Positions 3,591 to 17,820 of a stretch of DNA of 55,207 nucleotides are shown in pieces. Within the stretch, counting starts at the first letter, position 1. Every line of letters begins with the position of its first letter. The notes under the pieces were generated by a model. That model saw nothing but the letters and a program-made list of their open reading frames with translations. It was not told the DNA's origin and ran no database searches. The stretch is from Acidobacteriota bacterium (GTDB lineage Bacteria; Acidobacteriota; Terriglobia; Acidiferrales; UBA7541): assembly GCA_003224085.1 (NCBI GenBank), contig QHYK01000068.1:1-55207 (forward strand), read 5' to 3'. Both the position numbers and the translations under genes were made by a program.

Positions 3591-3670
3591 GTCCACCTCC
3601 TTGGTTGGCTGCCAAGAGGCGATTCAGATAACTCATTCGGTTACAGATGCCTGAAAGCTCCCTCAGTGCC

Positions 3671-3706
3671 TTAACCACAGTAGGTTAATTAACTTGACGT
3701 GTCAAG
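3671..3706 (-). promoter_or_regulatory. Promoter with two overlapping palindromes, upstream of the ABM gene
   Basis: On the minus strand a perfect -35 TTGACA (3700-3705) and a weak -10 TACTGT (3677-3682) are 17 bases apart. Two inverted repeats cover them: TTAACC/GGTTAA (3671-3676 and 3683-3688) flanking the -10, and CTTGAC/GTCAAG (3693-3698 and 3701-3706) spanning the -35. This is a typical layout for a repressor-controlled promoter. The regulator is not known. Confidence 0.5.
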
Positions 3707-3898
3707 CTCAATCTGGGATTATTTTCCAAAATTAAGCTGATACGGTTAAGCACGCGGAGAACACCAGTGGATGTTTGCCTACTGATCAGGCAGCGGTTGG
3801 AAGAGTTAGGATTAAATAGGACTGGAGCAGCGCACGAACGAGACGGGTGACTCTGGGTACAATAAGGGGACGATATGAAGTGATATACGGTGCCCCGC

Positions 3899-3934
3899 GG
3901 TATCAAAAGATGTCCGCCGACACCGTTTGATATC
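3899..3934. other. Long hairpin inside the tRNA-like locus
   Basis: Bases 3899-3914 pair with 3919-3934 around a four-base CGCC loop, with only two mismatches and one G-T pair in sixteen positions. It lies between the GGGGACG at 3866 and the tRNA-like 3' half that ends at 4003. It may be an inserted element or part of a structured RNA. Confidence 0.5.
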
Positions 3935-3945
3935 AATCAGTTACA

Positions 3946-4003
3946 TCCGCCAGGGGCTCTGTCACGGCAGAGCCCGCGGGTTCGAGTCCCGTCGTCCCCG
4001 CCA
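3946..4003 (+). pseudogene. tRNA-Asp(GTC)-like 3' half, interrupted or remnant
   Basis: Bases 3957-4003 match the 3' part of a tRNA-Asp. The loop CTGTCAC has anticodon GTC, followed by GGCAG, then a T-arm GCGGG-TTCGAGT-CCCGT, acceptor strand CGTCCCC, discriminator G and an encoded CCA. The expected 5' half is not next to it: the bases before the loop (GGGCT) do not pair with GGCAG, and no D-arm is seen. The only perfect partner for the acceptor is GGGGACG at 3866-3872, 138 bases from the CCA end, with a TACAAT -10-like box just before it. This is either a tRNA broken by an insertion or the tRNA-derived end of an integrated element. It is not a normal tRNA gene. Confidence 0.5.
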
Positions 4004-4210
4004 TTTCTTTTCAATCACTTACGCGAAAGAATGGTGGACGCGAAAAATCTCCGACCCCAGATCGACCTTGAGCCGCCCGAATTGTTCGGTTCGCGCCGGG
4101 CTTGACAGGTCAGAAGTCCTACAGCGTCCGCAATTGAGCGAACTCACTTGACCGCATTCCTGGCTCGCCGCGTCGGTGGACGAACGCATCGTCCACGCTG
4201 TGGCTGACTC

Positions 4211-5536
4211 TCACACCGCCGCGAGGTAAACGTAGCGAAGAACGAATAGAACGGTGAGAATCCAGATGAGCGCGTTGATTTCCCGCCATTTTCCCGCGGC
4301 CAGCTTTACGATGGTGAAAGAAATGAGGCCCAGGCTGAGCCCGGTTGCGATGCTGAATGTAAGTGGCGTCGCCAACATGGTGACAAAGGCTGGTAGGGCC
4401 TCGCTGAAGTCGTTCCACTTTACTTGCGCGATCGCTCGGGACATGAAAACGCCCACCAGTATCAATGCGGGCGCTGTTGCGTAAGCGGGAATCGCGGTGG
4501 CCAGCGGCGAGCAGAACATGGCCAGGAGGAACAGCGCGGCGACTGCAAGATTGCTAAGTCCGGTACGCGCCCCGGCTGCGACGCCGGCGGCGCTTTCGAT
4601 GTAACTCGTAACTGTAGAAGTGCCGGTCAAAGAGCCGAAAATCGTCCCGATGGAGTCCGCCAGCAAGACGCGGCCCACACGAGGAATTTTGCCGTTCTTA
4701 ACGAAGCCCCCTTGTTCGCAGACACCGACAAGAGTTCCGACGTTATCGAAGAGGTCTACAAACAGAAATGCGAAGAGAATTTCCAGCAAACCAAGATGCA
4801 ACGCTCCCCGGAAATCCAGACGGAAGAGCGTGGAAGAAGGACACGGCATGGAGAAAAAGGCCGACGGCCAGCCGGAGATGCCGCGGACAATTCCCACCAG
4901 CGTCGTGCCCAGAATGCCCACCACCATGGCGCCACGAAGTTCCTTTGCCAATAGGATCAGTGTGAGAACCAGCCCAAAACACGCGGTCTGGACCTCTTTG
5001 TCAGCGAAGCTGCCGAGACCAACATAAGTCGCGGCGTTCGCCACGACAAGTTTCGCATTGCGCAGGCCCACGAAGGCGATAAACATGCCGATTCCCGCCG
5101 CTGTCGAATGCTTCAAACAATCAGGTATGCCGTTGACGATCTGCTCGCGTACTCGCGTCACCGTGAGAATCAAAAAAAGCACACCGGAAAAGCAAACAAC
5201 CGCGAGCGCGGTTTGCCATGGGACGTGCATGGCCAGGCAAACCGAATAGGTAAAGTACGCGTTTAACGACATTCCCGGCGCAAGAGCGATCGGGTAATTC
5301 GCATACAATCCCATAACGAGCGTAGCAACCGCAGAAGAAAGGCACGTGGCGAACACCACGCCATCAGCCGGCATCCCGGCCTGGGAGAGAATCTGGGGGT
5401 TCACCACGACGATGTAGGCCATGGTGACGAATGTGGTCAGGCCTCCCAGCAGTTCCTGCTTCACCGAAGTCTGGTTCTGGGCTAATTGAAAGTATCGCTC
5501 GAGCAACGTTTTCCCCTTACCCGCAGCGTCCAGCAA
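4211..5536 (-). CDS. AzgA-type purine permease (NCS2 family)
   Basis: This 441-residue inner-membrane carrier has about 12-14 hydrophobic helices. It belongs to the AzgA/PbuG/GhxP branch of nucleobase permeases, which import hypoxanthine, guanine or adenine with protons. The family marks are the N-terminal TTFVTMAYIVVVNP, the ALAPGMSLNAYF segment in helix 3, FLFVDLFDNVGTLVGV near residue 265, and the GTSTVTSYIESAAGVAAGAR stretch. It lies downstream of guanine deaminase on the same strand (177-base gap), so uptake and first deamination are probably co-expressed. The start is a TTG. A second TTG at 5506 is a possible alternative. Exact substrate is inferred from the neighbours. Confidence 0.88.
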   Translation of the reverse strand: MLDAAGKGKTLLERYFQLAQNQTSVKQELLGGLTTFVTMAYIVVVNPQILSQAGMPADGVVFATCLSSAVATLVMGLYANYPIALAPGMSLNAYFTYSVCLAMHVPWQTALAVVCFSGVLFLILTVTRVREQIVNGIPDCLKHSTAAGIGMFIAFVGLRNAKLVVANAATYVGLGSFADKEVQTACFGLVLTLILLAKELRGAMVVGILGTTLVGIVRGISGWPSAFFSMPCPSSTLFRLDFRGALHLGLLEILFAFLFVDLFDNVGTLVGVCEQGGFVKNGKIPRVGRVLLADSIGTIFGSLTGTSTVTSYIESAAGVAAGARTGLSNLAVAALFLLAMFCSPLATAIPAYATAPALILVGVFMSRAIAQVKWNDFSEALPAFVTMLATPLTFSIATGLSLGLISFTIVKLAAGKWREINALIWILTVLFVLRYVYLAAV

Positions 5537-5713
5537 TAGACCGTACTCTCCATGAATCCAACCAGTGAGACGATGCCGCGGAGTTTATCCCCAAAAATGA
5601 AAAATGCAATTGGCGATTCGTGGCTTGCAGGAGGTATTGCGACAGAGAACGAACAAAGACAGCGTATTTTCGACACAAGTTGAAGAAGCGACAGGCAAGC
5701 GGACGTGGAAATC

Positions 5714-6181
5714 TCAGTACGGGATCTTGTCGACTTTGGCAGCCCACGCACGGAATCCGGCAAGCGCTTCTTCACGCATGATCTGGACCGTGGGGATGCG
5801 CCGTTGCAAATGAGGCTTCTTCAATTCGCCGTACAGGAAAGAATCGTCAAATCCGATTTCGGCGGCATCCGCGGCGGTATTGGCGAAATAAAGCCGGGAA
5901 AGGTGAGCCCAGTAGATTGCCCCGAGACACATGGGACAAGGCTCGCAGGAGGTATAGAGCTCACAGTCTTCCAAGTGATACACGCCGAGGTTGGCGCAGG
6001 CCTGCCGGATCGCAAGCACCTCCGCGTGGGCAGTAGGATCATTTGCTGAGGTGACTCGATTCACGCCCTCGGCTATGATCTTGCCGTCTCTCACGACTAC
6101 CGCGCCAAAGGGGCCGCCTCTTCCCGAACGAACATTGTCGATAGAGAGTTGCACGGCTCGTGCCATGAAGGGGTTACTCAT
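5714..6181 (-). CDS. guaD: Guanine deaminase (small cytidine-deaminase-fold type)
   Basis: This 155-residue zinc enzyme hydrolyses guanine to xanthine and ammonia in the cytosol. The zinc site is H52-A-E54, with E54 the proton shuttle, plus P81-C82-x-x-C85. The length and the C-terminal FLYGELKKP...VDKIPY region match the Bacillus GuaD type rather than tRNA adenosine deaminase TadA or the larger amidohydrolase-type guanine deaminase. The genomic context supports this: a purine permease is downstream, and the xanthine-to-glyoxylate genes start divergently 209 bases away. A TATAAC -10-like box at 6211-6216 lies upstream. A closely related deaminase with another base as substrate cannot be excluded by sequence alone. 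Confidence 0.88.
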   Translation of the reverse strand: MSNPFMARAVQLSIDNVRSGRGGPFGAVVVRDGKIIAEGVNRVTSANDPTAHAEVLAIRQACANLGVYHLEDCELYTSCEPCPMCLGAIYWAHLSRLYFANTAADAAEIGFDDSFLYGELKKPHLQRRIPTVQIMREEALAGFRAWAAKVDKIPY

Positions 6182-6210
6182 CGATGGTCATCCCCAATAC
6201 ATTTGTTGGC

Positions 6211-6216
6211 GTTATA
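6211..6216 (-). promoter_or_regulatory. Probable -10 box of guaD
   Basis: Read on the minus strand this is TATAAC. It sits 30 bases before the guaD start. The hexamer 17 bases upstream (TGTTTT) is a poor -35, so an activator may be needed. Confidence 0.35.
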
Positions 6217-6289
6217 CCAGCGCTAGATAACCCAAAACACCGCTTACACATCCGTGGAGACAACCGTGCAAGTATATGCTGAGTTTGTT

Positions 6290-6304
6290 GCCCTGCAGCA
6301 GGGC
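6290..6304. promoter_or_regulatory. Perfect palindrome between guaD and allB (candidate operator)
   Basis: GCCCTGC and GCAGGGC flank a single central A. The site is near the middle of the divergent 209-base intergenic region and ends 13 bases before the proposed -35 of the allantoinase promoter. It could bind a dimeric regulator controlling both directions. No regulator gene is present in the cluster. Confidence 0.4.
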
Positions 6305-6317
6305 TTTCCTGCGCGAG

Positions 6318-6346
6318 TTGAAAAAGTAAAGGCAGACAGCTACGCT
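6318..6346 (+). promoter_or_regulatory. Candidate promoter of the purine-degradation operon
   Basis: TTGAAA (6318-6323) and TACGCT (6341-6346) are separated by 17 bases and lie 45 bases before the allantoinase start. The -10 is weak. It is the best-spaced pair I found in this interval. Confidence 0.35.
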
Positions 6347-6390
6347 CATGCCTCAAACTGAACCTGAAGTTTGCGGAAGCGCCTCGTGCA

Positions 6391-7740
6391 ATGAATTTGC
6401 GCGCCTTTCATTCCCGCCACGTGGTAACTCCAGACGGTGTGCGTCCGGCCACTCTCCTGGTCGAAGGAGAGGTGATCCGGGACGTGGTTGACGCTGAACA
6501 AGTGCCGCCACAGGCGGAAACTCATGACTTTGGAGACGCGACAATCCTTCCCGGGCTAGTGGATTCTCACGTTCACATCAACGACCCTGGCCGAACGGAG
6601 TGGGAGGGATTCGAGACGGCCACGCGGGCGGCTGCAGCGGGAGGATACACTTTGCTGGTTGACATGCCCTTAAATTGCGTGCCCAGCACGACCACCGTGA
6701 AGGCGCTTGAGCTAAAACGGGTGGCTGCGGAAGGCCGATGCCGCGTGGATTGGCTGGCTTGGGGAGGAGTCGTCGCGGACAATCAGGGCGACATCGAGTC
6801 TCTGGCTGCCGCGGGAGTGCCCGGGTTCAAATGCTTTCTCATTCATCCGGGCGTCGACAGCTTTACCATGGTTACGGAGCCGCAGTTGCGCGCGGCTTTG
6901 CCTTCTGTTGCCCGAACCGATCTGCCTCTGCTGGTCCACGCGGAACTTCCCGGCCCCATCGATAGAGCGACGAAAGACCTGGCAGATGCGGATTGGCGTT
7001 GCTATCGAACGTATTTGCAATCACGGCCGGAAGAAGCGGAAGTTTTGGCCATTCGGATGCTGCTATCGCTATGCCGCGAATACCGCCTCCGTTTGCACAT
7101 CGTGCATCTCTCGGCGAGTAGCGCGCTTTCCGAAGTGCGCGCTGCGCGCGCGGAAGGGCTTCCGGTGAGTGTGGAAACGTGCCCGCATTATTTGCACTTT
7201 GCTGCCGAGACTATTCCGAACAGATCCACGCTGCATAAATGCGCGCCGCCGATTCGAAGCCAAGACAACTGCGAACAATTATGGCAGGCCCTTCGAGAGG
7301 GAACGATCGATTTCGTGGTAACCGACCATTCGCCCTGTCCGTCGGAAATGAAACGGCTTTCCGAGGGAAATTTCCGAACAGCCTGGGGCGGCATTGCAAG
7401 CCTGTCCGTGTCCTTGCCGGTGATGTATACCGAGGCGTGCCACCGAGGGTTTGGGCTGACCGATATCGCTCGTTGGATGTCGGAAGGGCCAGCGAAGTTG
7501 GCGGGCTGCGAAAAGCGCAAAGGGCGAATCGCCGCGGGATACGATGCCGACTTCGTCGTATTTGACATGGAGAGTGAGTTGGTTGTGACCAAGGAGCGGC
7601 TGCATTACCGGCATCCGTTCTCTCCGTATTTGGGAGAGAAATTGCGCGGAGTTGTGATGGCCACATACCTTCGAGGAACCCCGGTATTCTCCGAAGGCAA
7701 GTTTCCGGGAAAACCTATCGGACGGGAGTACCGGCGTTAA
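6391..7740 (+). CDS. allB: Allantoinase
   Basis: This 449-residue cytosolic amidohydrolase opens the hydantoin ring of allantoin to give allantoate. The binuclear metal site is visible: H60-x-H62 in DSHVHINDPG, the carbamylated-lysine candidate K147 in VPGFKCFL, H183 in LLVHAE, a histidine in LHIVHLSASS (about 236-239), and D312 in VVTDHSPC. The RTEWEGFETATRAAAAGG stretch following the first motif is characteristic of allantoinases rather than dihydroorotases or dihydropyrimidinases. It is the first gene of the plus-strand cluster. The next gene starts one base after its stop. Length is normal for the family (about 450). Confidence 0.95.
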   Translation: MNLRAFHSRHVVTPDGVRPATLLVEGEVIRDVVDAEQVPPQAETHDFGDATILPGLVDSHVHINDPGRTEWEGFETATRAAAAGGYTLLVDMPLNCVPSTTTVKALELKRVAAEGRCRVDWLAWGGVVADNQGDIESLAAAGVPGFKCFLIHPGVDSFTMVTEPQLRAALPSVARTDLPLLVHAELPGPIDRATKDLADADWRCYRTYLQSRPEEAEVLAIRMLLSLCREYRLRLHIVHLSASSALSEVRAARAEGLPVSVETCPHYLHFAAETIPNRSTLHKCAPPIRSQDNCEQLWQALREGTIDFVVTDHSPCPSEMKRLSEGNFRTAWGGIASLSVSLPVMYTEACHRGFGLTDIARWMSEGPAKLAGCEKRKGRIAAGYDADFVVFDMESELVVTKERLHYRHPFSPYLGEKLRGVVMATYLRGTPVFSEGKFPGKPIGREYRR

Positions 7741-7741
7741 G

Positions 7742-10018
7742 ATGATTGGCGTGAAAGACGAACGCATCGTGGGAACAGCTGTTCCGCGCCTGGAAGGTCG
7801 CGAGAAAATCACCGGACAGGCTCGTTATGTGGACGACATGGTTCTGCCCGGGATGCTGTACGGTGCGACAGTGCGCAGCCGGATTCCGCGCGGCAAGATT
7901 AAAAAAATCACTTTCGGCCCGGAAATCAATTGGCAAGAGTTTGTAATTGTTTCCGCGAAAGACATCCCAGGGAAGAATTGCGTCGCGCTGATCGAAGACG
8001 ACCAGCCATGCCTAGCAGACGAATTCATCAACCACCCCGAAGAGCCAATTCTTTTGCTGGCCCATGAGGACCGGCATCTTCTGCCAAAGGCTGTGGAAGC
8101 AGTGTCGGTCGAGTACCATCCGCTGTCTGCGATTTTCACAATGGAAGAAAGCGAAAGCCGCAGCGAAATCATTTGGGGTGCGAACAACACCTTCAAGACC
8201 ATTCTGATCGACAAGGGCGATGTGCAGGGCGTGTGGGAGAAGGCCCACTATATTGTCGAAGGCGAATACAGGACCGGAGCGCAGGAACAGCTCTACATCG
8301 AGAACAATGGAATGATTGCCGCGTTCGAACCCCAGCAAGGGCTCACGGTGTGGGGTTCGCTTCAATGTCCCTACTACGTGCACAAAGCATTGATGGAACT
8401 TTGCGGGCTGCCCCCGGGTCGCGTACGAGTCGTGCAGATGGAGACAGGCGGAGCGTTTGGTGGCAAGGAGGAATATCCCTCGATGATAGCGGCGCACGCC
8501 GCCCTGCTTGCCCTCAAATCGGGACGGCCAGTGAAAATCATCTACGACCGCATGGAGGACATGGCTGCAACCACCAAGCGCCACCCTTCAAGAACCCGCC
8601 ACCGCACGGCGGTGAGCAAGGATGGAAAGATCCTTGGCGGAACCATAGAATTCACGATTGACGGCGGCGCCTACGCTACTTTGTCCTCCGTTGTTCTCTC
8701 ACGCGGTGCCATTCACGCCGGGGGCCCTTACTATTGGCCCAACGTCCGCATCAACGCGAAAGCCGTAGCCACGAATGCTCCGCCGCATGGCGCGTTTCGC
8801 GGCTTTGGTGCGCCGCAGTCTATTTTTGCGCTGGAGCGGCACATGGACCGCATCGCGCAGGTTGTCGAGCTTTCGCCAATCGAAATCCGGCGGCGGAATT
8901 TCCTCAAGCCGGGACAAACCACGACAACCGGACAAGCGGTAAGCGAACCGATTGATCTTGGCCGGCTGCTCGATCGCGCCCTCGAACTTTCGAACTACTC
9001 TGCAAAGAAAGACGAATTTGCGCGCCAAAATCAAAATGGCAACTGCAAAAGAGGGATTGGCATCGCCTCGTTTTTGCACGGCGCCGGATTCACGGGCGCG
9101 GGGGAGCGGTATCTCAGTTCTGTGGTTGAGGTAGAAGCGTGCGAGGACGGCGGCGTGCGGGTGCTCGTTTCCAGCGCGGAATTTGGTCAAGGGACGAAGA
9201 CCATTCTCTGCCAAATTGCGGCGGAGGCGCTCGGGCTGCGGTATGAAGATGTGCGATTTGCCCAGCCGGATACGCAAGAAGTCCCGAATAGCGGCCCCAC
9301 GGTTGCCTCGCGAACGGCGATGGTGGTTGGAAAACTAGTGCAGTCGGCGGCCATCGGCATTCGGCAGACCCTCAGGGCCAGCGGCCTCCTTGGCGAATCT
9401 TATTCTGCCGAAGAATTCCGCATCGCCTGCCGCAAGTATGTTGCAGCGCACGGAAAGCTGCGTTCGCTAGCGCGTTACGAGCAGCCCGAGGACATTGTCT
9501 GGAATGAAGAAAAATATCGCGGCTCGGCGTACGCAGCGTTTTCGTGGGCCGTCTACATCGCGGCGGTCACTGTAGATCTGACCACGTACAGTGTTAGCGT
9601 GGACGACTTCGTTGCGCTTCAAGAAGTTGGAAGAGTGCTTCATCCGGTGCTGGCAAAAGGCCAGATTATCGGCGGTGTCGCTCAGGCGATTGGTTTTGCC
9701 CTGTACGAGAGAGTCGTTTGGGACAACGGACGCATGCAGAACGCGCAAATGACCAACTACATCATGCCAACTTCCGCCGACTTGCCTCCCATTCGCGTGT
9801 ACTTCGAGGAGATGGGCAACGTGCACGGAGCCTTTGGCGCAAAGGGAATAGGAGAACTGCCGATGGACGGCCCTGCGCCGGCAATTGTCAGTGCCGTGGG
9901 AGACGCGCTGAGGACTTTTTTCAACTCGATTCCTTTGCTTCCCGAAGATATTTTTGATGCGATTGCCGGCAAAGGGGAAAATGCGGAGCACGCAGGTTCG
10001 GCGCGGGGAAATCCATGA
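7742..10018 (+). CDS. xdhA: Xanthine dehydrogenase, molybdopterin-binding subunit
   Basis: This 758-residue catalytic subunit of a three-subunit xanthine dehydrogenase hydroxylates hypoxanthine and xanthine to urate at a molybdenum-cytosine/molybdopterin centre. The sequence shows the N-terminal hammerhead domain (VGTAVPRLEGREKITGQARY), the cofactor motif GGAFGGKEEY at 236-245, GAFRGFGAPQ at 350-359, EFGQGTKT in the third domain, and the C-terminal GAKGIGE motif whose glutamate is the catalytic base. It overlaps the iron-sulfur subunit by four bases. The xdhA name follows E. coli usage. The purine assignment rests on the neighbours, since sequence alone cannot separate all xanthine-oxidase-family substrates. 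Confidence 0.92.
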   Translation: MIGVKDERIVGTAVPRLEGREKITGQARYVDDMVLPGMLYGATVRSRIPRGKIKKITFGPEINWQEFVIVSAKDIPGKNCVALIEDDQPCLADEFINHPEEPILLLAHEDRHLLPKAVEAVSVEYHPLSAIFTMEESESRSEIIWGANNTFKTILIDKGDVQGVWEKAHYIVEGEYRTGAQEQLYIENNGMIAAFEPQQGLTVWGSLQCPYYVHKALMELCGLPPGRVRVVQMETGGAFGGKEEYPSMIAAHAALLALKSGRPVKIIYDRMEDMAATTKRHPSRTRHRTAVSKDGKILGGTIEFTIDGGAYATLSSVVLSRGAIHAGGPYYWPNVRINAKAVATNAPPHGAFRGFGAPQSIFALERHMDRIAQVVELSPIEIRRRNFLKPGQTTTTGQAVSEPIDLGRLLDRALELSNYSAKKDEFARQNQNGNCKRGIGIASFLHGAGFTGAGERYLSSVVEVEACEDGGVRVLVSSAEFGQGTKTILCQIAAEALGLRYEDVRFAQPDTQEVPNSGPTVASRTAMVVGKLVQSAAIGIRQTLRASGLLGESYSAEEFRIACRKYVAAHGKLRSLARYEQPEDIVWNEEKYRGSAYAAFSWAVYIAAVTVDLTTYSVSVDDFVALQEVGRVLHPVLAKGQIIGGVAQAIGFALYERVVWDNGRMQNAQMTNYIMPTSADLPPIRVYFEEMGNVHGAFGAKGIGELPMDGPAPAIVSAVGDALRTFFNSIPLLPEDIFDAIAGKGENAEHAGSARGNP

Positions 10019-10512
10019 GCGAATCTCCGGACGAGAGCTCCAAATGGGAAATCACTCTAACGGTCAACGGAAAGCGCGTTACCGTGCAAGCGTATGCGAT
10101 GGAGCGCCTGCTGGACGTGGTGCGAAATGACCTCGGCTTGAAAGGCACCAAGGAAGGCTGTGGAGAAGGCGAGTGTGGTTCGTGCAGCGTATTGATGGAT
10201 GGAGTGCTGGTGAATAGCTGCCTCATTCCCGTGTTGCAAGCGAAGGACAGCACCATTATTACGATTGAGGGCGTCCAAGCTGACGGGCGCGCTCCAGTGG
10301 TGCAGCAGGCTTTTCTGGAGTATGGCGGCGCTCAATGCGGAATCTGCACTCCTGGAATGATCCTTGCAGCGTGCCACTTACTGCAGAAAAAACCTCAGCC
10401 CACAATAGAAGAGATCCGCGAGGGACTTTCCGGCAATCTGTGCCGCTGCACTGGTTACCTGCAGATCATTGAGGCTGTGAAGGAAGCAGCGCGCCGCGGA
10501 GCGGCAACGTGA
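10015..10512 (+). CDS. xdhC: Xanthine dehydrogenase, [2Fe-2S] subunit
   Basis: This 165-residue electron-transfer subunit carries two [2Fe-2S] clusters. The plant-ferredoxin-type cluster is held by C49, C54, C57 (CGEGECGSC) and C69. The second, all-helical domain holds C108-x-x-C111 (QCGICTPGM) and C143-x-C145 (LCRCTGY). It passes electrons from the molybdenum centre to the FAD subunit. ATGA-type overlaps join it to the large subunit upstream and to the FAD subunit downstream, so the three are translated together. The first ten residues are a short hydrophilic extension. Length is typical (150-170). Confidence 0.95.
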   Translation: MSESPDESSKWEITLTVNGKRVTVQAYAMERLLDVVRNDLGLKGTKEGCGEGECGSCSVLMDGVLVNSCLIPVLQAKDSTIITIEGVQADGRAPVVQQAFLEYGGAQCGICTPGMILAACHLLQKKPQPTIEEIREGLSGNLCRCTGYLQIIEAVKEAARRGAAT

Positions 10513-11387
10513 GAGCTCATCCCGCCAATTATGAGCTCGTTGCGCCTGGTGGCTTGTCCGCGGTCCTTTCCCTTTTGGCCAAGGAGCGCGGCGTGTGGCT
10601 TCCCATTGCCGGAGGTACGGATGTGATGGTCGAGTATGCAGCGGGGAAACTTCCAGCGCGAAAGCTGGTTAGTATCTGGAATCTTCCGGAGCTGCGGCGG
10701 ATCGAAGTTTTTCCGGGTGAGATTCGGATTGGCGCAGGATGCACGTATACCGATCTTCGCGTGCACGATATGGTGGGCCGGGAGTTTCCGCTTTTGGCCA
10801 ACGCGGCGAGCTGGACCGGCGGAATCGCGAACCAAAACCGCGGAACCATCGGAGGCAACATCGTCAACGCGTCGCCAGCGGCCGATTCGCTGCCCGCTTT
10901 GCTGGTTTATGAAGCAGAGCTGATACTTGTTTCGGCGAACGGGGAGCGCCGAGTTCCCTACTCCAATTTCCATGTCGCTTACCGGAAGACACGGCTTGCT
11001 CCCGATGAATTGATTCGTGCCGTATGCCTTCCGAGGTGCTTTTCGCGGTATTATGCGCACGCGCGTAAAGTAGGCCCGCGCAAAGCGCAGGCCATTGCCA
11101 AAGTATGCCTGGCGGCACAAGCCCGACTGGAGAATGGAGTGGTTGAAGATATCCGCGTTGCGATGGGAAGTGTGGCGCCGGTTCCGCTTCGTTTGGTGAG
11201 GACCGAAGACAGCATAAAGAGAAAACCGATTGATGCAGCGCTCCTCCGGTTAGCGAGGCAAACGACGGCTGCGGAGATTCAGCCGATTGACGACATTCGC
11301 TCCACGGCAAGCTATCGGGCGGCGGTGGCGGGAAACTTGGTGGCGGAATTTTTGCAAGCGCTGAGCACGCGTGGAATGCAGGGATGA
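10509..11387 (+). CDS. xdhB: Xanthine dehydrogenase, FAD-binding subunit
   Basis: This 292-residue subunit of the CoxM/XdhB flavoprotein family takes electrons from the iron-sulfur clusters and gives them to NAD or another acceptor. The FAD pyrophosphate-binding motif PIAGGTDVMVEY is near residue 35. The second motif NQNRGTIGGNIVNASPAADSLP is at about 105-127. The start is a GTG at 10509 that overlaps the stop of the iron-sulfur subunit (GTGA). The family also serves CO, nicotinate and aldehyde dehydrogenases, and the purine role comes from context. Confidence 0.93.
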   Translation: MRAHPANYELVAPGGLSAVLSLLAKERGVWLPIAGGTDVMVEYAAGKLPARKLVSIWNLPELRRIEVFPGEIRIGAGCTYTDLRVHDMVGREFPLLANAASWTGGIANQNRGTIGGNIVNASPAADSLPALLVYEAELILVSANGERRVPYSNFHVAYRKTRLAPDELIRAVCLPRCFSRYYAHARKVGPRKAQAIAKVCLAAQARLENGVVEDIRVAMGSVAPVPLRLVRTEDSIKRKPIDAALLRLARQTTAAEIQPIDDIRSTASYRAAVAGNLVAEFLQALSTRGMQG

Positions 11388-11896
11388 ACGGCGTGCTCGC
11401 GCGCTGGAACGCACTGCCTTTCGGGGATGCTGTGGAGGAACTCTTACCCTGCTGCGGTTCGAAGGCGTGGGCGCGCGGGATGGCGTTGCGCCGACCCGTC
11501 CGCGACGAAACTGCTCTTCTGGCAGCGGGCGATGGCCTGTGGAGGCGTCTGCCCGCATGCGATTGGATGGAAGCATTTCGAAGTCATCCGCGGATTGGCG
11601 AATCCCCCGCACTCGCGTCGGCTTCACAACGGTCGGAAGCGTGGTCAAGGACAGAACAACAAGAGGTCAGTGCGGCTGAGGAAGAGGTTAAACGTGCTCT
11701 GGCGGAAGCCAATCGTATCTATGAAAAACGGTTTAATCGCATCTTTATCGTTTGCGCTACGGGGAAGTCAGGGCCAGAAATCCTGGAGATTCTGAGGCGC
11801 CGTCTGAAAAACGATGACAACACGGAGCTCCACGAAACGGCGGAGCAACAACGGCAAATTATGCGCATCCGTCTGACGAAGTGGCTCTCCTCATGA
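11384..11896 (+). CDS. uraD: OHCU decarboxylase
   Basis: This 170-residue all-helical enzyme decarboxylates 2-oxo-4-hydroxy-4-carboxy-5-ureidoimidazoline to S-allantoin. The active-site histidine lies in SHPRIGES near residue 68, and the family motif FNRIFIVCATGKSGPEIL is at about 118-135. The C-terminal block has NDDNTELHETAEQQRQIM followed by RIRLTKWL. It overlaps xdhB upstream (ATGA) and uraH downstream (ATGA). Without it, the intermediate decays to racemic allantoin, so its presence beside PuuD and HIU hydrolase fits a complete urate-to-S-allantoin module. Confidence 0.95.
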   Translation: MNGVLARWNALPFGDAVEELLPCCGSKAWARGMALRRPVRDETALLAAGDGLWRRLPACDWMEAFRSHPRIGESPALASASQRSEAWSRTEQQEVSAAEEEVKRALAEANRIYEKRFNRIFIVCATGKSGPEILEILRRRLKNDDNTELHETAEQQRQIMRIRLTKWLSS

Positions 11897-12237
11897 AACG
11901 GATCTCCACCCACGTGTTGGACATCGCTCAAGGAAAGCCGGCGCGAGACGTCGCCGTACGGCTGGAGAGACGGGAGATCACGGGCGACTGGGTGGTCCTA
12001 GGTTCTGCGCGCACGGATGCTGACGGTCGCTGTGCGCAATTGTTTCCCGGCGAGGATGCTCTTCCTGCCGGGCTCTACCGTTTGAGCTTCGATACTGCAA
12101 GCTACCAGCACGCGCAAAGGATCGAGGGTTTCTTTCCTGTCGTGGAGGTGACATTTCAAGTACGCGAGGGAGAATCGCAATTTCACATTCCGCTGCTGCT
12201 CAGCCCGCATGGGTATACGACGTATCGGGGGAGCTAA
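11893..12237 (+). CDS. uraH: 5-hydroxyisourate hydrolase (transthyretin-like)
   Basis: This 114-residue transthyretin-fold enzyme hydrolyses 5-hydroxyisourate, the direct product of urate oxidation, to OHCU. The N-terminal STHVLDIAQGKPA contains the active-site histidine. An RTDADGRC stretch follows in mid-sequence, and the protein ends in the diagnostic YRGS. I chose the ATG at 11893, which overlaps the uraD stop as ATGA, over an in-frame GTG at 11881. No signal peptide is seen, so it acts in the cytosol, where it would meet the product of the membrane urate oxidase. Confidence 0.95.
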   Translation: MKRISTHVLDIAQGKPARDVAVRLERREITGDWVVLGSARTDADGRCAQLFPGEDALPAGLYRLSFDTASYQHAQRIEGFFPVVEVTFQVREGESQFHIPLLLSPHGYTTYRGS

Positions 12238-12270
12238 TCGAATGACTGCGCGGGCGGGGGAGGTGAGAGC

Positions 12271-13086
12271 GTGAGCTCTGCCATCCGCGAATGGCTCAAC
12301 CTGGGCGTGCGCTGGTTCCACGTCTTCGCGGGCATCCTTTGGGTCGGGCAAACGTATTATTTCACGTGGTTGGACGGACAGTTCAGCAGAGCCGAAAAGA
12401 GCGCGGCGGACGGAAAGCCATCCCCAGTCTGGATGGTCCACAGCGGAGGCTTTTACGCGGTCGATAAGCAGAAGTCGCTTGGGGTGAACCCCGGGCAGGT
12501 CCGCTGGTTTCGTTGGGAAGCGATGATGACATGGCTGAGCGGGTTGGTGTTGCTGACGCTTGTCTATTACGCTAGTTCCGGGCTCACTGACCCGGACGTC
12601 GCGGAAATCTCTCAGGGACGCGCGATTGCCATTGGAGTCGCAGTCCTGGTGGGCGGATGGGCGATTTACGATTTCGCGGTGCGTTCGTTTCTGGGCAAGT
12701 CAGAAACGGTGTTTGCCGCATTTGCGTTTCTAATGACAGCTGCCATTTCTTGGGGATTGTTGCGCGTCTTCAGCGCGCGGGCCGCATATCTTCATGTAGG
12801 AGCGCTGTTCGGTACCATCATGACCCTCAATGTGTGGGAGAGAATTTTGCCGGCACAACGCAAGATGATCGCTGCAGCGGAAAAGGGAGCTGTGTTTGAC
12901 GCCAAGCTCAGCGCCCAAGCAAAGCTTCGGTCCAAGCACAATACGTTCGTGGCCGTTCCCGTAGTTTTTCTCATGATCAGCAATCACTTCCCGGTAGCAA
13001 CGTATGGAAACCGCTACAGTTGGGAAATCCTGGTGGGTCTTACGGTGACCGGCTGGGCAGCAGCAAAGGTAATTCGTTCCGCCTAG
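12271..13086 (+). CDS. puuD: PuuD-type membrane urate oxidase, without cytochrome c domain
   Basis: This 271-residue integral membrane protein matches the N-terminal membrane region of PuuD (Urate_ox_N/DUF989), which oxidises urate to 5-hydroxyisourate and passes electrons to the respiratory chain. About seven hydrophobic helices are visible, starting with VRWFHVFAGILWVG, with histidines in helices 1, 5 and 6. Described PuuD proteins are about 400 residues and end in a cytochrome c domain. Here there is no CxxCH and the protein stops after the last helix, so the electron acceptor must be separate. The GTG start has a GGGGGAGGTGAG ribosome site. It lies 33 bases after uraH. Confidence 0.88.
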   Translation: MSSAIREWLNLGVRWFHVFAGILWVGQTYYFTWLDGQFSRAEKSAADGKPSPVWMVHSGGFYAVDKQKSLGVNPGQVRWFRWEAMMTWLSGLVLLTLVYYASSGLTDPDVAEISQGRAIAIGVAVLVGGWAIYDFAVRSFLGKSETVFAAFAFLMTAAISWGLLRVFSARAAYLHVGALFGTIMTLNVWERILPAQRKMIAAAEKGAVFDAKLSAQAKLRSKHNTFVAVPVVFLMISNHFPVATYGNRYSWEILVGLTVTGWAAAKVIRSA

Positions 13087-13124
13087 AGGGCGGACAACAT
13101 TGACGTTCCGAGTACTGATACTCA

Positions 13125-14390
13125 GTGCAGAAGACCTTCAACACGGCAAATCTCGCGAGCGAAGTGGTGGCTCGGTGCCAGAGGCTGGCACAATTTAGCG
13201 AGGATGCCAATGGCACGCGGCGGACGTTTCTCTCGCCGCCCATGCGGGATTGCCATGCGGAAATTGCCAAGTGGCTGAAAGCCGTGGGCGCGGAAGTCTC
13301 CGTGGATGCTGCAGGAAATTTGCGCGGTTACTATCCTGGCGTTCGGCGCCCAGGGCCGCGATTGCTTTTGGGCTCGCACCTCGACACTGTACCGAATGCA
13401 GGAGCCTATGATGGCGTTCTCGGAGTAGTTGTTGGGGTCGCGCTACTCGAAGCCCTCGAAGGGCGGCGGCTTCCGTTTGCGATTGAAGTTATTGGATTTT
13501 CCGAAGAAGAAGGAATCCGGTTTGGCACGCCCTTTATCGGCAGTCGCGCTCTGGTCGGCAGCCTGGATGCGGAGCTTTTGAGCTGCCGGGACAAGAATGG
13601 CGTCTCGGTCGAGAAAGCGATTGAAGAGTTTGGATTGAGGCCCGCGGAGATTCCGCGCGCCGCCCTGCGCGAGGATTGCTTGGGCTACATTGAGTTTCAC
13701 ATTGAACAAGGCCCGGTGCTGGAGAAACTCGGGTGCCAGCTCGCGGCCGTTGATGCCATCGTCGGACAGAACCGTCTGGAATTCTCATTTTCCGGCCACG
13801 CAAATCATGCGGGAACAACGCCGATGCATCTCCGCAATGACGCACTCGCCGGCGCGGCGGAGTGGGTCGTGGGCGTGGAGAGCCTCGCGCAGCACAGCCC
13901 GGGTTTGGTTGCGACCGTTGGATTTATCGAAGCAAAGCCGGGGGCCACGAACGTGATCGCTGGAGAGGCGCGCGCAACGTTGGATCTTCGCCACGCGTCG
14001 GACAGCGCACGATTGCAGGCTGTAGAAGAGTTGACCCGTGCGGCAGAAAGTATCGCTGTGAAGCGCGGCTTATCGCTGAGGTCGAGAACCCTTTTGCAGC
14101 AACGCGCCGTTACGATGGACCCTTTTCTGGTGGATCAAATTGCACAAGCCATTCGAAAAGCGGGCTGCAAGCCCCAGCGCATGGCCAGCGGCGCAGGGCA
14201 CGACGCCATGATTCTGGCGGAAAAGGTTCCGGCGGCGATGATTTTCTTGCGGACGCCGGGGGGCATCAGCCATGATCCCGCCGAATCAGTGCATCTCCAA
14301 GACGTGGCCAGCGCTGTGGAGTGCGGAGTGCATTTGCTCGAACAATTGGCGTGGTCGCAAGAATTTCTGACAAGGACGCAACGTGGATAA
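13125..14390 (+). CDS. allC: Allantoate amidohydrolase
   Basis: This 421-residue M20-family metallo-amidohydrolase converts allantoate to ureidoglycine, CO2 and ammonia. The two-metal site is H85-x-D87 (GSHLDTV), D96 (AYDGVLG), E128/E129 (SEEEG), H192 (EFHIEQGP) and H383 (GISHDPAE). The dimer-domain block SGHANHAGTTPM near 223-234 and MASGAGHDAMI near 353-363 resemble E. coli AllC and bacterial allantoate/N-carbamoyl amidohydrolases. The start is a GTG with a poor ribosome site. An in-frame stop nine bases upstream rules out a longer form. It shares eight bases with the next gene, supporting coupling. N-carbamoyl-amino-acid hydrolase is the main alternative and context disfavours it. Confidence 0.88.
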   Translation: MQKTFNTANLASEVVARCQRLAQFSEDANGTRRTFLSPPMRDCHAEIAKWLKAVGAEVSVDAAGNLRGYYPGVRRPGPRLLLGSHLDTVPNAGAYDGVLGVVVGVALLEALEGRRLPFAIEVIGFSEEEGIRFGTPFIGSRALVGSLDAELLSCRDKNGVSVEKAIEEFGLRPAEIPRAALREDCLGYIEFHIEQGPVLEKLGCQLAAVDAIVGQNRLEFSFSGHANHAGTTPMHLRNDALAGAAEWVVGVESLAQHSPGLVATVGFIEAKPGATNVIAGEARATLDLRHASDSARLQAVEELTRAAESIAVKRGLSLRSRTLLQQRAVTMDPFLVDQIAQAIRKAGCKPQRMASGAGHDAMILAEKVPAAMIFLRTPGGISHDPAESVHLQDVASAVECGVHLLEQLAWSQEFLTRTQRG

Positions 14391-15129
14391 TCCTGGTCAA
14401 ACGCGCAGCTCGCATCAGCCCCATCATCTGCTGCTTACTCCGGACACTTTTGTGCGCACGACACTTCCGGGAATGAAGAATGCTTCCGCCATCGTGCACA
14501 TTGGACCGGCGCTCGGCGCCCGGTTCACTGAGTACAGCGTCGAGTTTGAGTCCAATGGCGAATTGGGACCGGCGAGTGCGCAAAGATTCTTGTACGTCAT
14601 CGAAGGAGCGATCGTCCTGGAAACCGATGGGAAGCGGCACGAACTTTGCCCGCGCGGCTATGCCTATCTCGGCCAAGGGTTGGCACATCGGTTGGTCGGG
14701 AAACAAAAAGGTCGGATGGCGGTCATTGAAAAACAATACCTGCCCGTCGATGGCGTCATCGCACCGAGGTTGCTGGTTTCGAGTGAAGACGCAATCAAAT
14801 CACATCCGCTCGATGAAGATCTGGATTTGCAAGTGAAATGCTTGCTCCCTGACGATTGCCAATTCGATTTCGCCGTGAATACGATGGTCTATCAACCGGG
14901 GGCCGCACTGAGCATGGTGGAAATGCACGTGATGGAGCACGGGCTGCTGATGATCGAGGGCGGTGGCATCTACCGGCTGGGGGATTCCTGGTATCCCGTA
15001 AAGGCGGGAGATTTCATCTGGATGGGGCCTTGGTGCCCGCAGTGGTTTGGCGCGATCGGCAAGACGCCGGCGAAGTACCTCATCTATAAAGACTGGAATC
15101 GGCATCCTCTAACGAGCCAGGCACGATGA
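14383..15129 (+). CDS. allE: (S)-ureidoglycine aminohydrolase
   Basis: This 248-residue bicupin manganese enzyme releases ammonia from (S)-ureidoglycine to give (S)-ureidoglycolate. The C-terminal cupin has the full metal set E180-x-H182 and H186 (SMVEMHVMEHG) and Q220 (WCPQWFG). The N-terminal cupin (residues about 40-115) keeps the fold but not the metal ligands, as in the family. The GTG start at 14383 overlaps the allC stop, and its own stop overlaps the next gene (ATGA). Its position between the two M20 hydrolases matches its place in the pathway. Confidence 0.93.
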   Translation: MDNPGQTRSSHQPHHLLLTPDTFVRTTLPGMKNASAIVHIGPALGARFTEYSVEFESNGELGPASAQRFLYVIEGAIVLETDGKRHELCPRGYAYLGQGLAHRLVGKQKGRMAVIEKQYLPVDGVIAPRLLVSSEDAIKSHPLDEDLDLQVKCLLPDDCQFDFAVNTMVYQPGAALSMVEMHVMEHGLLMIEGGGIYRLGDSWYPVKAGDFIWMGPWCPQWFGAIGKTPAKYLIYKDWNRHPLTSQAR

Positions 15130-16364
15130 ATCTTGACGTTGACCGGGATCGCCTGATCCAGGAAATCGAAGAACTAGCGCAGATTTCCGATGCGGAAGCT
15201 CCTGCGGTAACGCGAATTGTATTTACTCCGACGGACCTTAAAGCGCGGGCCTGGCTGATAACCCGATGCGAAAAAGCCGGGCTCGCAGTGCGACAGGACC
15301 CCATCGGAAACATCTTTGCTCGTTGGACCGGCTCCGATTCGAATGCTCCAGCAGTAGGAGCGGGTTCGCACATGGATGCGATTCCCAACGCAGGAAAATT
15401 TGACGGCGTTGTCGGCGTGCTCGGGGGGCTTGAGGCGATCCGCTCCCTGAAACGCAGCGGCTTTCGCCCTAGGCACTCGATCGAGTTGCTCGTTTTTACT
15501 TCGGAAGAGCCCACGCGATTCGGAATTGGATGTCTTGGCAGCCGGTTGCTTTCGGGAAGCTTGTCTCCGGACGAAGCAAAAAAACTGGTTGATAAAGATG
15601 GCGCCTCGCTTGAAGAGGTTCGCCGGAAAGCAGGATTCGAAGGAGAACTCGAGGAAGTAAAGCTGCCGCGGGGCCACTACAAGGCATTTGTTGAAATGCA
15701 CATCGAGCAAGGCCCCTTGCTGGAACGCCAGAAAGTTCCCCTCGGGATTGTGAGGCGGATCGCCGCTCCAGCGAGCCTTCGAATTTCCGTCGAAGGTGTC
15801 GGCGGACATGCAGGGGGAGTCTTGATGCCCGACCGCAGAGACGCCCTTTGTGCGGCGGCGGAACTCATTCTTGCCATCGAAAACGCTGCAAAAACAAGCG
15901 GTGCCGTCGATACCGTGGCAACTGTGGGTATCTGCGAAGTGTTTCCCGGCGCCGTGAATAGCATCCCGAGCCGGGTAAACCTGATCGTGGACTTGCGCGA
16001 CACCGATCTTCGTCGTCGCGATGCCGTCATGGGCAAGGTGAAGGCCGCGCAGGAAATGATCGCCGCGAAGCGGCTGGTCTCGATTCAGGAAACCTTGTTA
16101 AACGCAGATGCGCCTGCAGAATGCACTCCAGAGATTATCGGTGCGCTTTCGCAAGCGTGCGCGAAGCACAGGCAGAAATCTATGCCCATGGTCAGTCGCG
16201 CCTACCACGACTCGCTGTTTATGTCGCGCCTGGCTCCGGTTGCCATGCTGTTTATTCCGTGCCGCAATGGGTACAGCCATCGGCCTGACGAATATGCGTC
16301 GCCTGAGGACATCGCGCGCGGAGTTGCGGTTCTCGCTGAAACTCTCGCGAACTTGGCAGAGTAA
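15126..16364 (+). CDS. Ureidoglycolate amidohydrolase (plant UAH-like, M20 family)
   Basis: This 412-residue second M20 amidohydrolase probably hydrolyses ureidoglycolate to glyoxylate, two ammonia and CO2. Metal ligands are H82-x-D84, D93, E127/E128 (TSEEPTRFG), H192 (EMHIEQGP) and H385 (YSHRPDEY). As I recall the plant ureidoglycolate amidohydrolase sequence, it shares with this protein the SEEPTRFG form and the C-terminal SRAYHDSLFM and GYSHRPDEYASPED blocks. These differ from the SGAGHD and SHDPAE forms in the allC product next door. It ends the pathway without ureidoglycolate lyase or oxamate steps. A terminator hairpin follows 25 bases later. Confidence 0.85.
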   Translation: MNLDVDRDRLIQEIEELAQISDAEAPAVTRIVFTPTDLKARAWLITRCEKAGLAVRQDPIGNIFARWTGSDSNAPAVGAGSHMDAIPNAGKFDGVVGVLGGLEAIRSLKRSGFRPRHSIELLVFTSEEPTRFGIGCLGSRLLSGSLSPDEAKKLVDKDGASLEEVRRKAGFEGELEEVKLPRGHYKAFVEMHIEQGPLLERQKVPLGIVRRIAAPASLRISVEGVGGHAGGVLMPDRRDALCAAAELILAIENAAKTSGAVDTVATVGICEVFPGAVNSIPSRVNLIVDLRDTDLRRRDAVMGKVKAAQEMIAAKRLVSIQETLLNADAPAECTPEIIGALSQACAKHRQKSMPMVSRAYHDSLFMSRLAPVAMLFIPCRNGYSHRPDEYASPEDIARGVAVLAETLANLAE

Positions 16365-16388
16365 GCCCCACTGTTTTTTGTAATCCGC

Positions 16389-16413
16389 ACTTCCAAGAAG
16401 GAAGTTAGTTTTT
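16389..16413 (+). terminator. Rho-independent terminator of the purine operon
   Basis: ACTTCC (16389-16394) pairs with GGAAGT (16400-16405) around an AAGAA loop, followed by three bases and a five-T run (16409-16413). It lies just after the last plus-strand gene and overlaps the end of the convergent adenosine deaminase gene. The stem is short, so efficiency is uncertain. Confidence 0.55.
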
Positions 16414-17502
16414 CCCGGCGGCGGTTGCACCCAAAGAAGCGCGAACCTTGGCGCAGCCCGGTTTGATAACGGAATAGATGAACTCGATTCGTTTGTCGTA
16501 GGGGAGGAAGGCGCTCTTCATGGCGTTGATGGTGAGCTTCTCAAAGTCGTCAAGCCCGAGTCCAAAGGTTTCCGCAGCCGCCGCAAACTCTTTGGACATC
16601 GAGGTGTCGCTCATCAAGCGGTTATCCGTATTGAGAGTCACGCGAAATTTGGCCTGGTAAAAGATTTTGAAAGGATGCTCCTCAAGGCTTTTGGCGGCCC
16701 CGGTGTGGACGTTGCTGATCAGGCAGATTTCCAGGGGGATGCGCTTGTCCAGAACGTATTGGGCCAGGTCGCCCAATTTCACGGCCTTGCCATCCGCCAC
16801 AGCAATGTCATCAATTAGCCGGGTGCCATGTCCGATGCGGTGCGCTCCGCAGTATTGGATGGCCTGCCAGATAGACTCTTTGCCGAAACCTTCCCCAGCG
16901 TGAATGGTGATGTTGAAGTTTTCGCGCTGGATGTAGTGAAAAGCGTCCACGTGCTTCTTAGGAGGGTAGCCGCCTTCTTCGCCGGCCAGATCGAATCCAA
17001 CGACGCCGCGCCCGCGGAAGTCCACCGCCAATTCCGCCATTTCGAGTGAAACGTCCATATTGCGCATCGCGCAGATAATGAGGCTGGAAGAAATACCAAA
17101 GTCTTTGCGCCCACGCTCCAAACCCTTCAACACGGCGGAAACGACTTGCTGATGGGTCAGGCCCTTCCAGGTGTGAAAAACCGGCGCAAAGCGTGTCTCG
17201 AAGTAAACTACACCGTCGCGGTTCAGGTCTTCCGCCTGCTCATAGGCGACGCGCTCCAGCGCCTCCTCGGTCTGCATCACGGCGATCGTATGGGCAAAGC
17301 CCTCGAGGTATTTCGGCAGACTCCCCTGGTTCGCGCCCTGGTGGAACCATTTTGCCAGTTGTTCGGGATCTCGGCTCGGAAGCTCGGTGTAGTGGCTGTC
17401 TTTTGCCAGCTCAATCACCGTCTCCGGCCTGAGGACGCCATCCAGATGTTCGTGCAACAACACTTTGGGGAGTCTCTTCAGGATAGCCGGGTCCAGTTTC
17501 AT
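16405..17502 (-). CDS. add: Adenosine deaminase
   Basis: This 365-residue zinc TIM-barrel enzyme deaminates adenosine (or adenine) to inosine (or hypoxanthine), which feeds the xanthine dehydrogenase made from the opposite strand. The zinc and catalytic residues are H17-x-H19 in LLHEHLDG, the histidine and glutamate of TIHAGEGFGKES, the histidine of HRIGHGTRL, and the aspartate pair region LNTDNRLMSDTS. SNVHTGA is the usual following motif. I chose the ATG at 17502, which has GGAGG six bases upstream. An earlier start would add 16 residues that do not match the family. It is convergent with the purine operon. Confidence 0.92.
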   Translation of the reverse strand: MKLDPAILKRLPKVLLHEHLDGVLRPETVIELAKDSHYTELPSRDPEQLAKWFHQGANQGSLPKYLEGFAHTIAVMQTEEALERVAYEQAEDLNRDGVVYFETRFAPVFHTWKGLTHQQVVSAVLKGLERGRKDFGISSSLIICAMRNMDVSLEMAELAVDFRGRGVVGFDLAGEEGGYPPKKHVDAFHYIQRENFNITIHAGEGFGKESIWQAIQYCGAHRIGHGTRLIDDIAVADGKAVKLGDLAQYVLDKRIPLEICLISNVHTGAAKSLEEHPFKIFYQAKFRVTLNTDNRLMSDTSMSKEFAAAAETFGLGLDDFEKLTINAMKSAFLPYDKRIEFIYSVIKPGCAKVRASLGATAAGKN

Positions 17503-17820
17503 TACCGCCTCCGCGATCTTTGCCCTTCGCGAGCACATCGAGAATAACAAAGTGTCCGCTGAAATTCGCGCGGCGAGGCGAATTACGGTTCGACGAGGAC
17601 AGCCTGTGGAAATCTAAGAAATAAATTCGTGCAAACAAAAAAATTTGTTTTAGATTCTTGCGCAAATCGGAGTAGTTTCCTTTGCATTGTCCCCGGGGGG
17701 CGTGGCAGGCCGTGTATAGCGGCTGGCAACAATTTGGCGACCACAAGAAAAATACGTTCGCAGTGTCAAGTTTTGAGTCGGGCTAAGTGGACATCGATAT
17801 TCGGAGGAGGTTGGCGCTGA
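17503..17820. promoter_or_regulatory. Divergent region between add and the TonB-dependent receptor
   Basis: No gene is seen in these 318 bases. The region holds an AT-rich inverted repeat, AAACAAA/TTTGTTT (17633-17650, four-base spacer), and the palindrome TTGCGCAA (17658-17665). Both are candidate operators for one or both flanking genes. A strong GGAGG site precedes the receptor start. No convincing -35/-10 pair was found for the receptor. Confidence 0.35.

Follow-up and report, generated by a model that had tools for sequence, protein, structure and literature searches.

How does a bacterium oxidize urate with a PuuD-type enzyme that lacks the cytochrome domain held to be invariant in the family? 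The question is raised by a purine-degradation cluster at positions 4211-17550 of the 55,207-nucleotide stretch analyzed here (the window; contig QHYK01000068.1 of an Acidobacteriota bacterium, assembly GCA_003224085.1). In the available part of the report on PuuD (PMC4562309; further statements from this source refer to the same part), urate oxidation is assigned to the family by genetics, all full-length proteins carry a C-terminal cytochrome c, the presence of which is called invariant and argued to be probably essential, the origin of PuuD is sought in the fusion of a membrane domain with a cytochrome, and the topology is given as eight transmembrane helices, N-out and C-out, the active side being proposed to be cytosolic. 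The PuuD of the window, encoded at 12271-13086 on the plus strand, is the membrane domain alone. We consider it likely that the cluster is an ammonia-only purine operon in which this carrier-free PuuD takes the urate step and would hand its electrons to a periplasmic carrier to which it is not attached, the fused cytochrome of its relatives having come later. As a purine operon the cluster is of an ordinary kind; the novelty lies in its carrier-free urate oxidase, and no description of such a form in purine clusters was found in the literature (open-licence papers).

With 271 residues and a stop codon 38 nucleotides ahead of the next gene, the window PuuD has the PF06181 domain at full length, and the unmatched end of the profile corresponds to the region of the missing eighth helix. 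Its AlphaFold model (mean predicted local distance difference test score, pLDDT, of 90.2) shows seven long helices, a beta hairpin at residues 53-64 and no eighth helix; the cytochrome-fused PuuD of Pseudomonas putida (L117; 442 residues, model built on its own alignment, pLDDT 78.5) has the same seven helices plus a helix at 279-294 ahead of the cytochrome domain. The motif CXXCH occurs in no open reading frame (ORF) of at least 60 residues across window positions 1-26000. A cytochrome tail concealed by a frameshift or encoded by a neighboring gene was also looked for and not found, and tblastn with the tails of relatives revealed no cytochrome-tail remnant in the window. The protein resembles published PuuD (PMC4562309) in its PF06181 domain, in the partner genes for 5-hydroxyisourate (HIU) hydrolase and OHCU decarboxylase and in the same conserved loops and residues; moreover, the genome of the window, which is 97% complete, holds no match to uricase (Uox, PF01014) in a search that was positive in two control genomes, HpxO and HpyO not being searched for. 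It differs in having no C-terminal CXXCH cytochrome c and seven helices instead of eight. The initial annotation had placed the urate steps in the middle of the cluster, where the gene does lie, without seeing that the urate oxidase is devoid of the published electron-transfer domain.

The short form is not confined to the window. PF06181 proteins are encoded in 55 of 396 genomes of the phylum, and the 36 such loci that were fetched comprise, by ORF anatomy and neighbors, 15 carrier-free PuuD, two PuuD whose tail is of a different kind and 19 paralogues, a label assigned before any tree by profile match and a missing hairpin stretch. A second set, of genome contigs, took the best 80 of at least 584 relatives of a carrier-free query and so gives no frequency; 19 of its loci are carrier-free (11 from Acidobacteriota, three from Fidelibacterota, two from Myxococcota and one each from Ignavibacteriota, Verrucomicrobiota and Elusimicrobiota) and a CXXCH tail is present in the other 61 (56 from Pseudomonadota, two each from Rokuibacteriota and Gemmatimonadota, one from Melainabacteria). 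Together with plasmid loci, tailed in four out of four, the cytochrome-tailed loci number 65, with tails of 125-187 residues; the carrier-free loci, window included, number 35. HIU hydrolase or OHCU decarboxylase is encoded nearby in 27 of these 35, as against none of the 19 paralogue loci. The neighbor test was blastp with the window proteins at an E value of 1e-8 over the fetched flanks (3-5 kb only for plasmid loci), and its counts are lower bounds, because the annotated uraD of L154 was missed. The paralogues at L048-L066 form a second PuuD-like membrane family of about 260 residues, with neither the W-x-V-H-G-G-F-Y hairpin nor nearby urate genes.

Residues W54, H57, Y62 and E83 are conserved in 97-100% of 102 PuuD, tailed and untailed, and in none of the 19 paralogues, while H17 and H239 occur without exception in all three groups, carrier-free, tailed and paralogous. 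Between the window puuD and that of L038, the nonsynonymous distance (dN) is 0.17 and the synonymous distance (dS) 1.84; against its three nearest relatives dN is 0.17-0.24 and dS 1.5-3.8, near or beyond saturation, and among the four nearest puuD genes the ranges are 0.13-0.24 and 0.97-3.78. The carrier-free puuD is under purifying selection. One could argue that the gene is degenerate, truncated or an assembly artefact and that the strain does not oxidize urate, since the protein is without a domain called invariant by the published definition (PMC4562309). We regard this as extremely improbable: the ORF ends 0 to 16 residues past the aligned domain in all 35 carrier-free loci, dN is low against dS, the conserved residues are kept, the next gene follows closely and the window harbors no vestige of a cytochrome tail.

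The place of puuD within the cluster bears on its role. The region comprises 13 intact, open ORFs (two minus-strand genes, ten plus-strand genes and a converging minus-strand gene), here listed with a hairpin:

4211-5536, minus strand: AzgA-type NCS2 purine permease, predicted importer of adenine, guanine and hypoxanthine (PF00860, 153.5 bits; all three PDB matches belong to the adenine/guanine permeases AZG1 and AZG2).
5714-6181, minus strand: guanine deaminase of the cytidine-deaminase fold (best PDB matches the guanine deaminases 1tiy and 1wkq, 195 bits; next a guanosine deaminase, 115).
6391-7740, plus strand: allantoinase AllB (TIGR03178, 534.8 bits; cut-off 357.85).
7742-10018, plus strand: xanthine dehydrogenase molybdopterin subunit, divergent (Pfam domains; below equivalog cut-offs; GGKE, AFRGFG and GAKGIGE aligned with 1fiq).
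10015-10512, plus strand: xanthine dehydrogenase 2Fe-2S subunit (PF01799, PF00111).
10509-11387, plus strand: xanthine dehydrogenase FAD subunit (PF00941, PF03450).
11384-11896, plus strand: OHCU decarboxylase (NF010372 and TIGR03180, above cut-off).
11881-12237, plus strand: HIU hydrolase (TIGR02962, 132.4 bits; cut-off 87.45).
12271-13086, plus strand: carrier-free PuuD-type urate oxidase (PF06181, Urate_ox_N, 285 bits, profile positions 3-262 of 295).
13125-14390, plus strand: allantoate amidohydrolase (NF006775, 539.5 bits; cut-off 479; NHAGTTPM and SGAGHDA aligned with 1z2l).
14383-15129, plus strand: (S)-ureidoglycine aminohydrolase (TIGR03214, 287.5 bits; cut-off 200).
15126-16364, plus strand: ureidoglycolate amidohydrolase, plant type (phmmer, 445.5 bits to 4pxe).
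16389-16405, plus strand: weak terminator-like hairpin, of a kind equally frequent in shuffled sequence.
16405-17550, minus strand: adenosine deaminase (NF006847, 494.6 bits; cut-off 412).

The initial annotation had located this cluster correctly, apart from its end at 17502, an internal ATG of an adenosine deaminase ORF that is open to 17550. By their ORF coordinates, the ten plus-strand genes are spaced at +1, -4, -4, -4, -16, +33, +38, -8 and -4 nucleotides, so that all ten, and not nine as previously stated, are tightly joined. A gene order unlike the order of the pathway had also been read as a sign of a single transcript; it is no evidence of one, and the evidence lies in the overlaps and in the conserved order. 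The comparison with other Acidobacteriota purine clusters that had been proposed proved informative in this respect: the identical order of ten genes is found in L038, L071 and L072 as well, and is therefore not a matter of chance.

The best evidence that carrier-free PuuD carries out the urate step is that an unrelated gene is exchanged with it in one and the same slot. A ureidoglycolate amidohydrolase of at least 57% identity is encoded in 23 of the 396 genomes, 21 of which have no PuuD; we examined 11 of these 21 (L182-L192), and all 11 have a uricase with the ammonia-route operon. In nine, the uricase sits between HIU hydrolase and allantoate amidohydrolase, exactly where PuuD is found, and in the other two (uricases of about 30% identity) it adjoins HIU hydrolase; Pfam PF01014 was confirmed in all six uricases checked. 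The operon of L183 has the order of the window, AllB-XdhMo-XdhFeS-XdhFAD-UraD-HIUH-X-AAH-UGlyAH-UAH (shorthand for the ten products listed above), with a uricase (L183:6573-7454) in slot X there and carrier-free PuuD here, two families unrelated in sequence. Conversely, uricase was found in none of the 36 PuuD loci checked, nor in the window.

In a tree rooted on the paralogues, the cytochrome-fused and copper-tailed forms make up one clade among the carrier-free forms, with a support of 100 (approximate likelihood-ratio test, SH-aLRT) in a quick tree of 96 rows, from which 25 near-duplicate cytochrome rows were left out, and of 100/99 in a careful tree of 70 rows, with 22 of the 65 cytochrome rows and 11 of the 19 paralogues. 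None of 200 bootstrap trees (0%) unites the carrier-free forms in a single group. The tailed PuuD forms are probably derived. Within the cytochrome clade, the copper-tailed pair (L031 and L032) is placed with a support of 93/74 in the careful tree and is not resolved in the quick one, which hints that a copper domain replaced the cytochrome in this lineage. On sequence grounds, the carrier-free membrane domain is perhaps the ancestral urate oxidase. To the fuller history, in which the bare seven-helix domain was the family's original urate oxidase and worked with a free acceptor, a single fusion brought the cytochrome with the eighth helix, and cytochrome later gave way to blue copper in one lineage, we would give an even chance.

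The membrane domain alone is thus, as we read these sequences, probably a working urate oxidase with a detached electron acceptor. Urate would be oxidized at the cytosolic face, by the hairpin W54-H57-Y62 and E83; the electrons would pass through the membrane domain towards the periplasm, exit near H17/H239 and leave to a carrier with no covalent link to PuuD, and the fused cytochrome of other PuuD would be a later attachment. The predicted positions of H17/H239 on the periplasmic side and of W54/H57/Y62/E83 on the cytosolic side follow from helix positions in the model and from the published topology. Lysine and arginine average 5.1, 1.0, 2.8 and 0.5 per sequence in the would-be cytosolic parts against 0.1, 0.5, 0 and 0.2 in the others, a topology signal tempered by the first loop, whose considerable length comes with 5.9 acidic residues. 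In the short form the C-terminus would be cytosolic, and an added eighth helix would therefore carry a fused tail to the periplasm. The likeliest acceptor is a periplasmic carrier, a diffusible c-type cytochrome or a blue-copper protein of the general respiratory chain, to which we would give about an even chance, ahead of quinone and, last, oxygen.

The relatives show what such a carrier may look like. Apart from the 65 loci in which the tail of PuuD is a cytochrome c, a blue-copper-like C-terminal domain and a CarboxypepD_reg-like domain replace the cytochrome in L031 (9996-11594) and L032 (9952-11544), where CXXCH is absent. The L031 tail matches the type-1 copper protein 5fc9 (E value 2.4e-4) and, for L031 only, Pfam Copper-bind below the cut-off (E value 0.01); a putative His ... 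Cys-x2-His-x2-Met ligand pattern was read by eye in these tails. In L109 (9319-10801), from Elusimicrobia, the gene just ahead of a carrier-free PuuD encodes a separate diheme cytochrome c. The membrane domain is the same whether a cytochrome or a copper-like domain is fused to it, a cytochrome is encoded next door or no carrier is present at all, and its partner appears swappable. The genome of the window has a pool of c-type cytochromes from which one could be drawn (33 PF13442 stretches, 30 of them above the cut-off).

When the 67 tails were compared by tblastn with the 35 carrier-free loci, seven hits resulted, none adjoining PuuD: the two copper tails hit a separate gene at 35.6 kb of the window, and five cytochrome-tail hits fall in L045, the best of them 6 kb from PuuD with 21% identity and an E value of 2e-5. 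The window gene, at 35410-36195 on the plus strand, encodes a free-standing homologue of the L031 copper tail (31% identity over 148 residues, E value 1e-17) with a signal-like N-terminus, as judged by eye, a C-x2-H-x2-M pattern and weak matches to copper proteins; its product, probably secreted, is a candidate free electron carrier. The gene may be unrelated to urate, because some 18 kb separate it from the end of the purine cluster at adenosine deaminase, and genes for a sensor kinase (31979-33763) and for another protein come before it. Two cytochrome c proteins, with one and two CXXCH motifs, are also encoded in the window on the minus strand, at 26579-28396 and 45505-46407, far from the purine operon.

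Several observations weigh against a carrier-free urate oxidase that is ancestral and served by a separate periplasmic carrier. The deep nodes of the tree are weak, with 82/47 at the key fork, and the approximately unbiased (AU) test does not reject monophyly of the carrier-free forms (p-AU 0.081), so that basal branching is not proven; since the paralogues are carrier-free too, a single gain of the carrier needs the fewest changes either way. Eight of the 35 carrier-free loci (L040, L041, L047, L080, L081, L084, L087 and L109) have neither the HIU hydrolase nor the OHCU decarboxylase gene in the fetched flanks, some of them near contig ends, and in L109, where the separate cytochrome occurs, no urate gene was found in the fetched flanks. 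Among the 35 carrier-free and two copper-tailed loci, no gene for a carrier (in ORFs of at least 100 residues) recurs within 7 kb of PuuD; the most recurrent neighbor groups are allantoicase, in 13 loci, and a DUF6986 protein, in 11, the Pfam identity coming from one member each, and further groups are small (3 to 6 loci) and without Pfam identity. The ccmC phenotype of Sinorhizobium meliloti fits an essential cytochrome in the fused enzymes (PMC4562309). Finally, no heme or quinone site is recognizable in PuuD, and no solved structure emerged as a clear relative: the PDB holds no sequence relative at E values up to 1, the best Foldseek E value is 0.57, and the best VIA match (Z 9.0 to 6w6x, 120 residues, root-mean-square deviation 2.9) is in a range uninformative for helical bundles.

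Some of the same observations would suit an enzyme that needs no carrier protein. Carrier-free PuuD might be a urate:quinone oxidoreductase that passes electrons straight to the membrane quinone pool, with periplasmic carriers employed only by the later, fused forms. This would agree with a membrane bundle in which several His, Arg, Trp, Asn and Met residues never vary, with the lack of a recurring carrier family, and with the finding that no CXXCH ORF of at least 60 residues lies within 5 kb, as far as each stretch reaches, in 33 of the 35 carrier-free loci (the exceptions are L039 and L109; in nine of the 35, less than 5 kb is available on one side). We nevertheless find it doubtful. The tails that were added to PuuD are periplasmic-type one-electron carriers, and these, together with the diheme cytochrome beside the L109 gene, fit a periplasmic exit better; moreover, a quinone site is not recognizable, and the weak resemblance to subunit C of fumarate reductase (Z 7.5 over 192 residues, root-mean-square deviation 6.0) is again in the uninformative range. 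An oxygen-reducing urate oxidase in need of no acceptor protein is suggested by the position of carrier-free PuuD in the slot of an oxygen-dependent uricase in otherwise equal operons, but is improbable: it would give no reason why the protein sits in the membrane or why its relatives are repeatedly coupled to carriers, and cells with fused PuuD show no rise of catalase on urate, unlike cells with uricase (PMC4562309).

Should the membrane domain indeed act with a detached carrier, it would open a way to the mechanism of the family. The chief approach to the mechanism of PuuD was through its fused cytochrome, and neither the active site nor the acceptor is experimentally shown in the available part of PMC4562309. 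A carrier-free form that stands in the place of uricase and is under purifying selection separates the catalytic domain from the carrier, and the question of the electron acceptor therefore becomes directly testable with a 271-residue protein. Carrier-free PuuD may also be a compact urate oxidase with no output of hydrogen peroxide, of interest for gout enzymes.

The pathway that this enzyme would serve appears to end in ammonia only. The product of the last plus-strand gene scores 445.5 bits with 4pxe, a plant ureidoglycolate amidohydrolase, 276.6 with the carbamoylase 3n5f and 178 with the allantoate amidohydrolase 1z2l (phmmer), and in the alignment with 4pxe its motifs GSHMDAIP, TSEEP, EMHIEQGP, SRAYHDSLFM and GYSHRPDE, which we take to be the metal-ligand motifs, are intact. 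It barely exceeds the cut-off of NF006771, a subfamily named allantoate amidohydrolase (405.5 against 399 bits), and could on that account be a second allantoate amidohydrolase or a carbamoylase, with nitrogen partly lost as ureide. This is very unlikely in view of the scores against solved structures, of the separate allantoate amidohydrolase encoded two genes upstream, and of a genome in which ureidoglycolate lyase (AllA) has no match. The same 97%-complete genome has no match to the urease alpha subunit, nor to allantoicase, for which the search was positive in two control relatives.

One ammonia is released by each of guanine deaminase, allantoate amidohydrolase and ureidoglycine aminohydrolase. 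Ureidoglycolate amidohydrolase (EC 3.5.3.19) frees two (PMC3793230, in its available part). The five nitrogens of guanine would accordingly leave as ammonia in four steps, 1 + 1 + 1 + 2. It is well supported by sequence that the locus is a purine-nitrogen scavenging operon leading from guanine (and from adenosine, with a phosphorylase encoded elsewhere) to glyoxylate, CO2 and ammonia, with no urea formed; the claim of a complete, ammonia-only route for the purine ring is thereby borne out, given the 4pxe score and a genome in which urease, AllA, allantoicase and uricase were not found. The three ammonia-releasing steps are those of the plant ureide pathway, as far as the available part of PMC3793230 describes it, and the solved structure closest to the last enzyme is that of the plant one; here, in contrast, the pathway is bacterial and shares a single operon with the steps for urate and xanthine. 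Further purine clusters of Acidobacteriota (such as L034 and L077) likewise combine xanthine dehydrogenase, allantoinase, OHCU decarboxylase and HIU hydrolase with a carrier-free PuuD, but carry allantoicase, which points to a urea-releasing route, and the three ammonia-releasing enzymes are not within the fetched stretch. A complete ammonia-only purine route is added to the ecology of Acidobacteriota, for which no description of one was found in the literature (open-licence papers). The glyoxylate formed could be taken by the product of a malate synthase-type gene in the genome. The DUF6986 (PF22484) protein, encoded beside PuuD at L088:1050-2486 and in 10 further loci, has weak similarity to malate synthase and HpcH/HpaI, and is another candidate for handling this glyoxylate.

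The steps that lead to urate are less uniform. None of the three xanthine dehydrogenase subunits reaches its NCBIfam equivalog cut-off (for the large subunit, 436.2 bits at best against 783.65), and in the comparison with solved structures the large subunit scores almost equally with nicotinate dehydrogenase (248.1 bits) and with xanthine oxidase (247.9). Its GGKE motif is shared with xanthine oxidase 1fiq and reads GGKL in nicotinate dehydrogenase; GGKE, AFRGFG and GAKGIGE presumably hold the substrate glutamate, the arginine and the catalytic (base) glutamate of xanthine oxidase. The gene set from guanine to glyoxylate that had been described is covered by the cluster, except that XdhC is encoded on another contig of the genome. 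The further claim that every step from adenosine lies in 13 kb does not hold: the conversion of inosine to hypoxanthine needs a nucleoside phosphorylase, absent from the 13 kb, and PNP_UDP_1 has three matches, candidates for this enzyme, elsewhere in the genome.

As to control elements, the hairpin at 16389-16405 corresponds to the single terminator of the initial annotation; the hairpin exists, but such hits number 24 in the region against 22.7 (standard deviation 5.4) in shuffled sequences. Five sigma-70-type promoters were found in 2500-19000, where 6.4 are expected by chance. No Rfam family scored above threshold in window positions 1-22000, and a riboswitch or other RNA control was rejected. 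Adjoining the adenosine deaminase gene, at 17821-21858 on the plus strand, is a gene for a 1345-residue outer-membrane beta-barrel protein with a CarboxypepD_reg domain, which could be an uptake channel, although nothing links it to purines.

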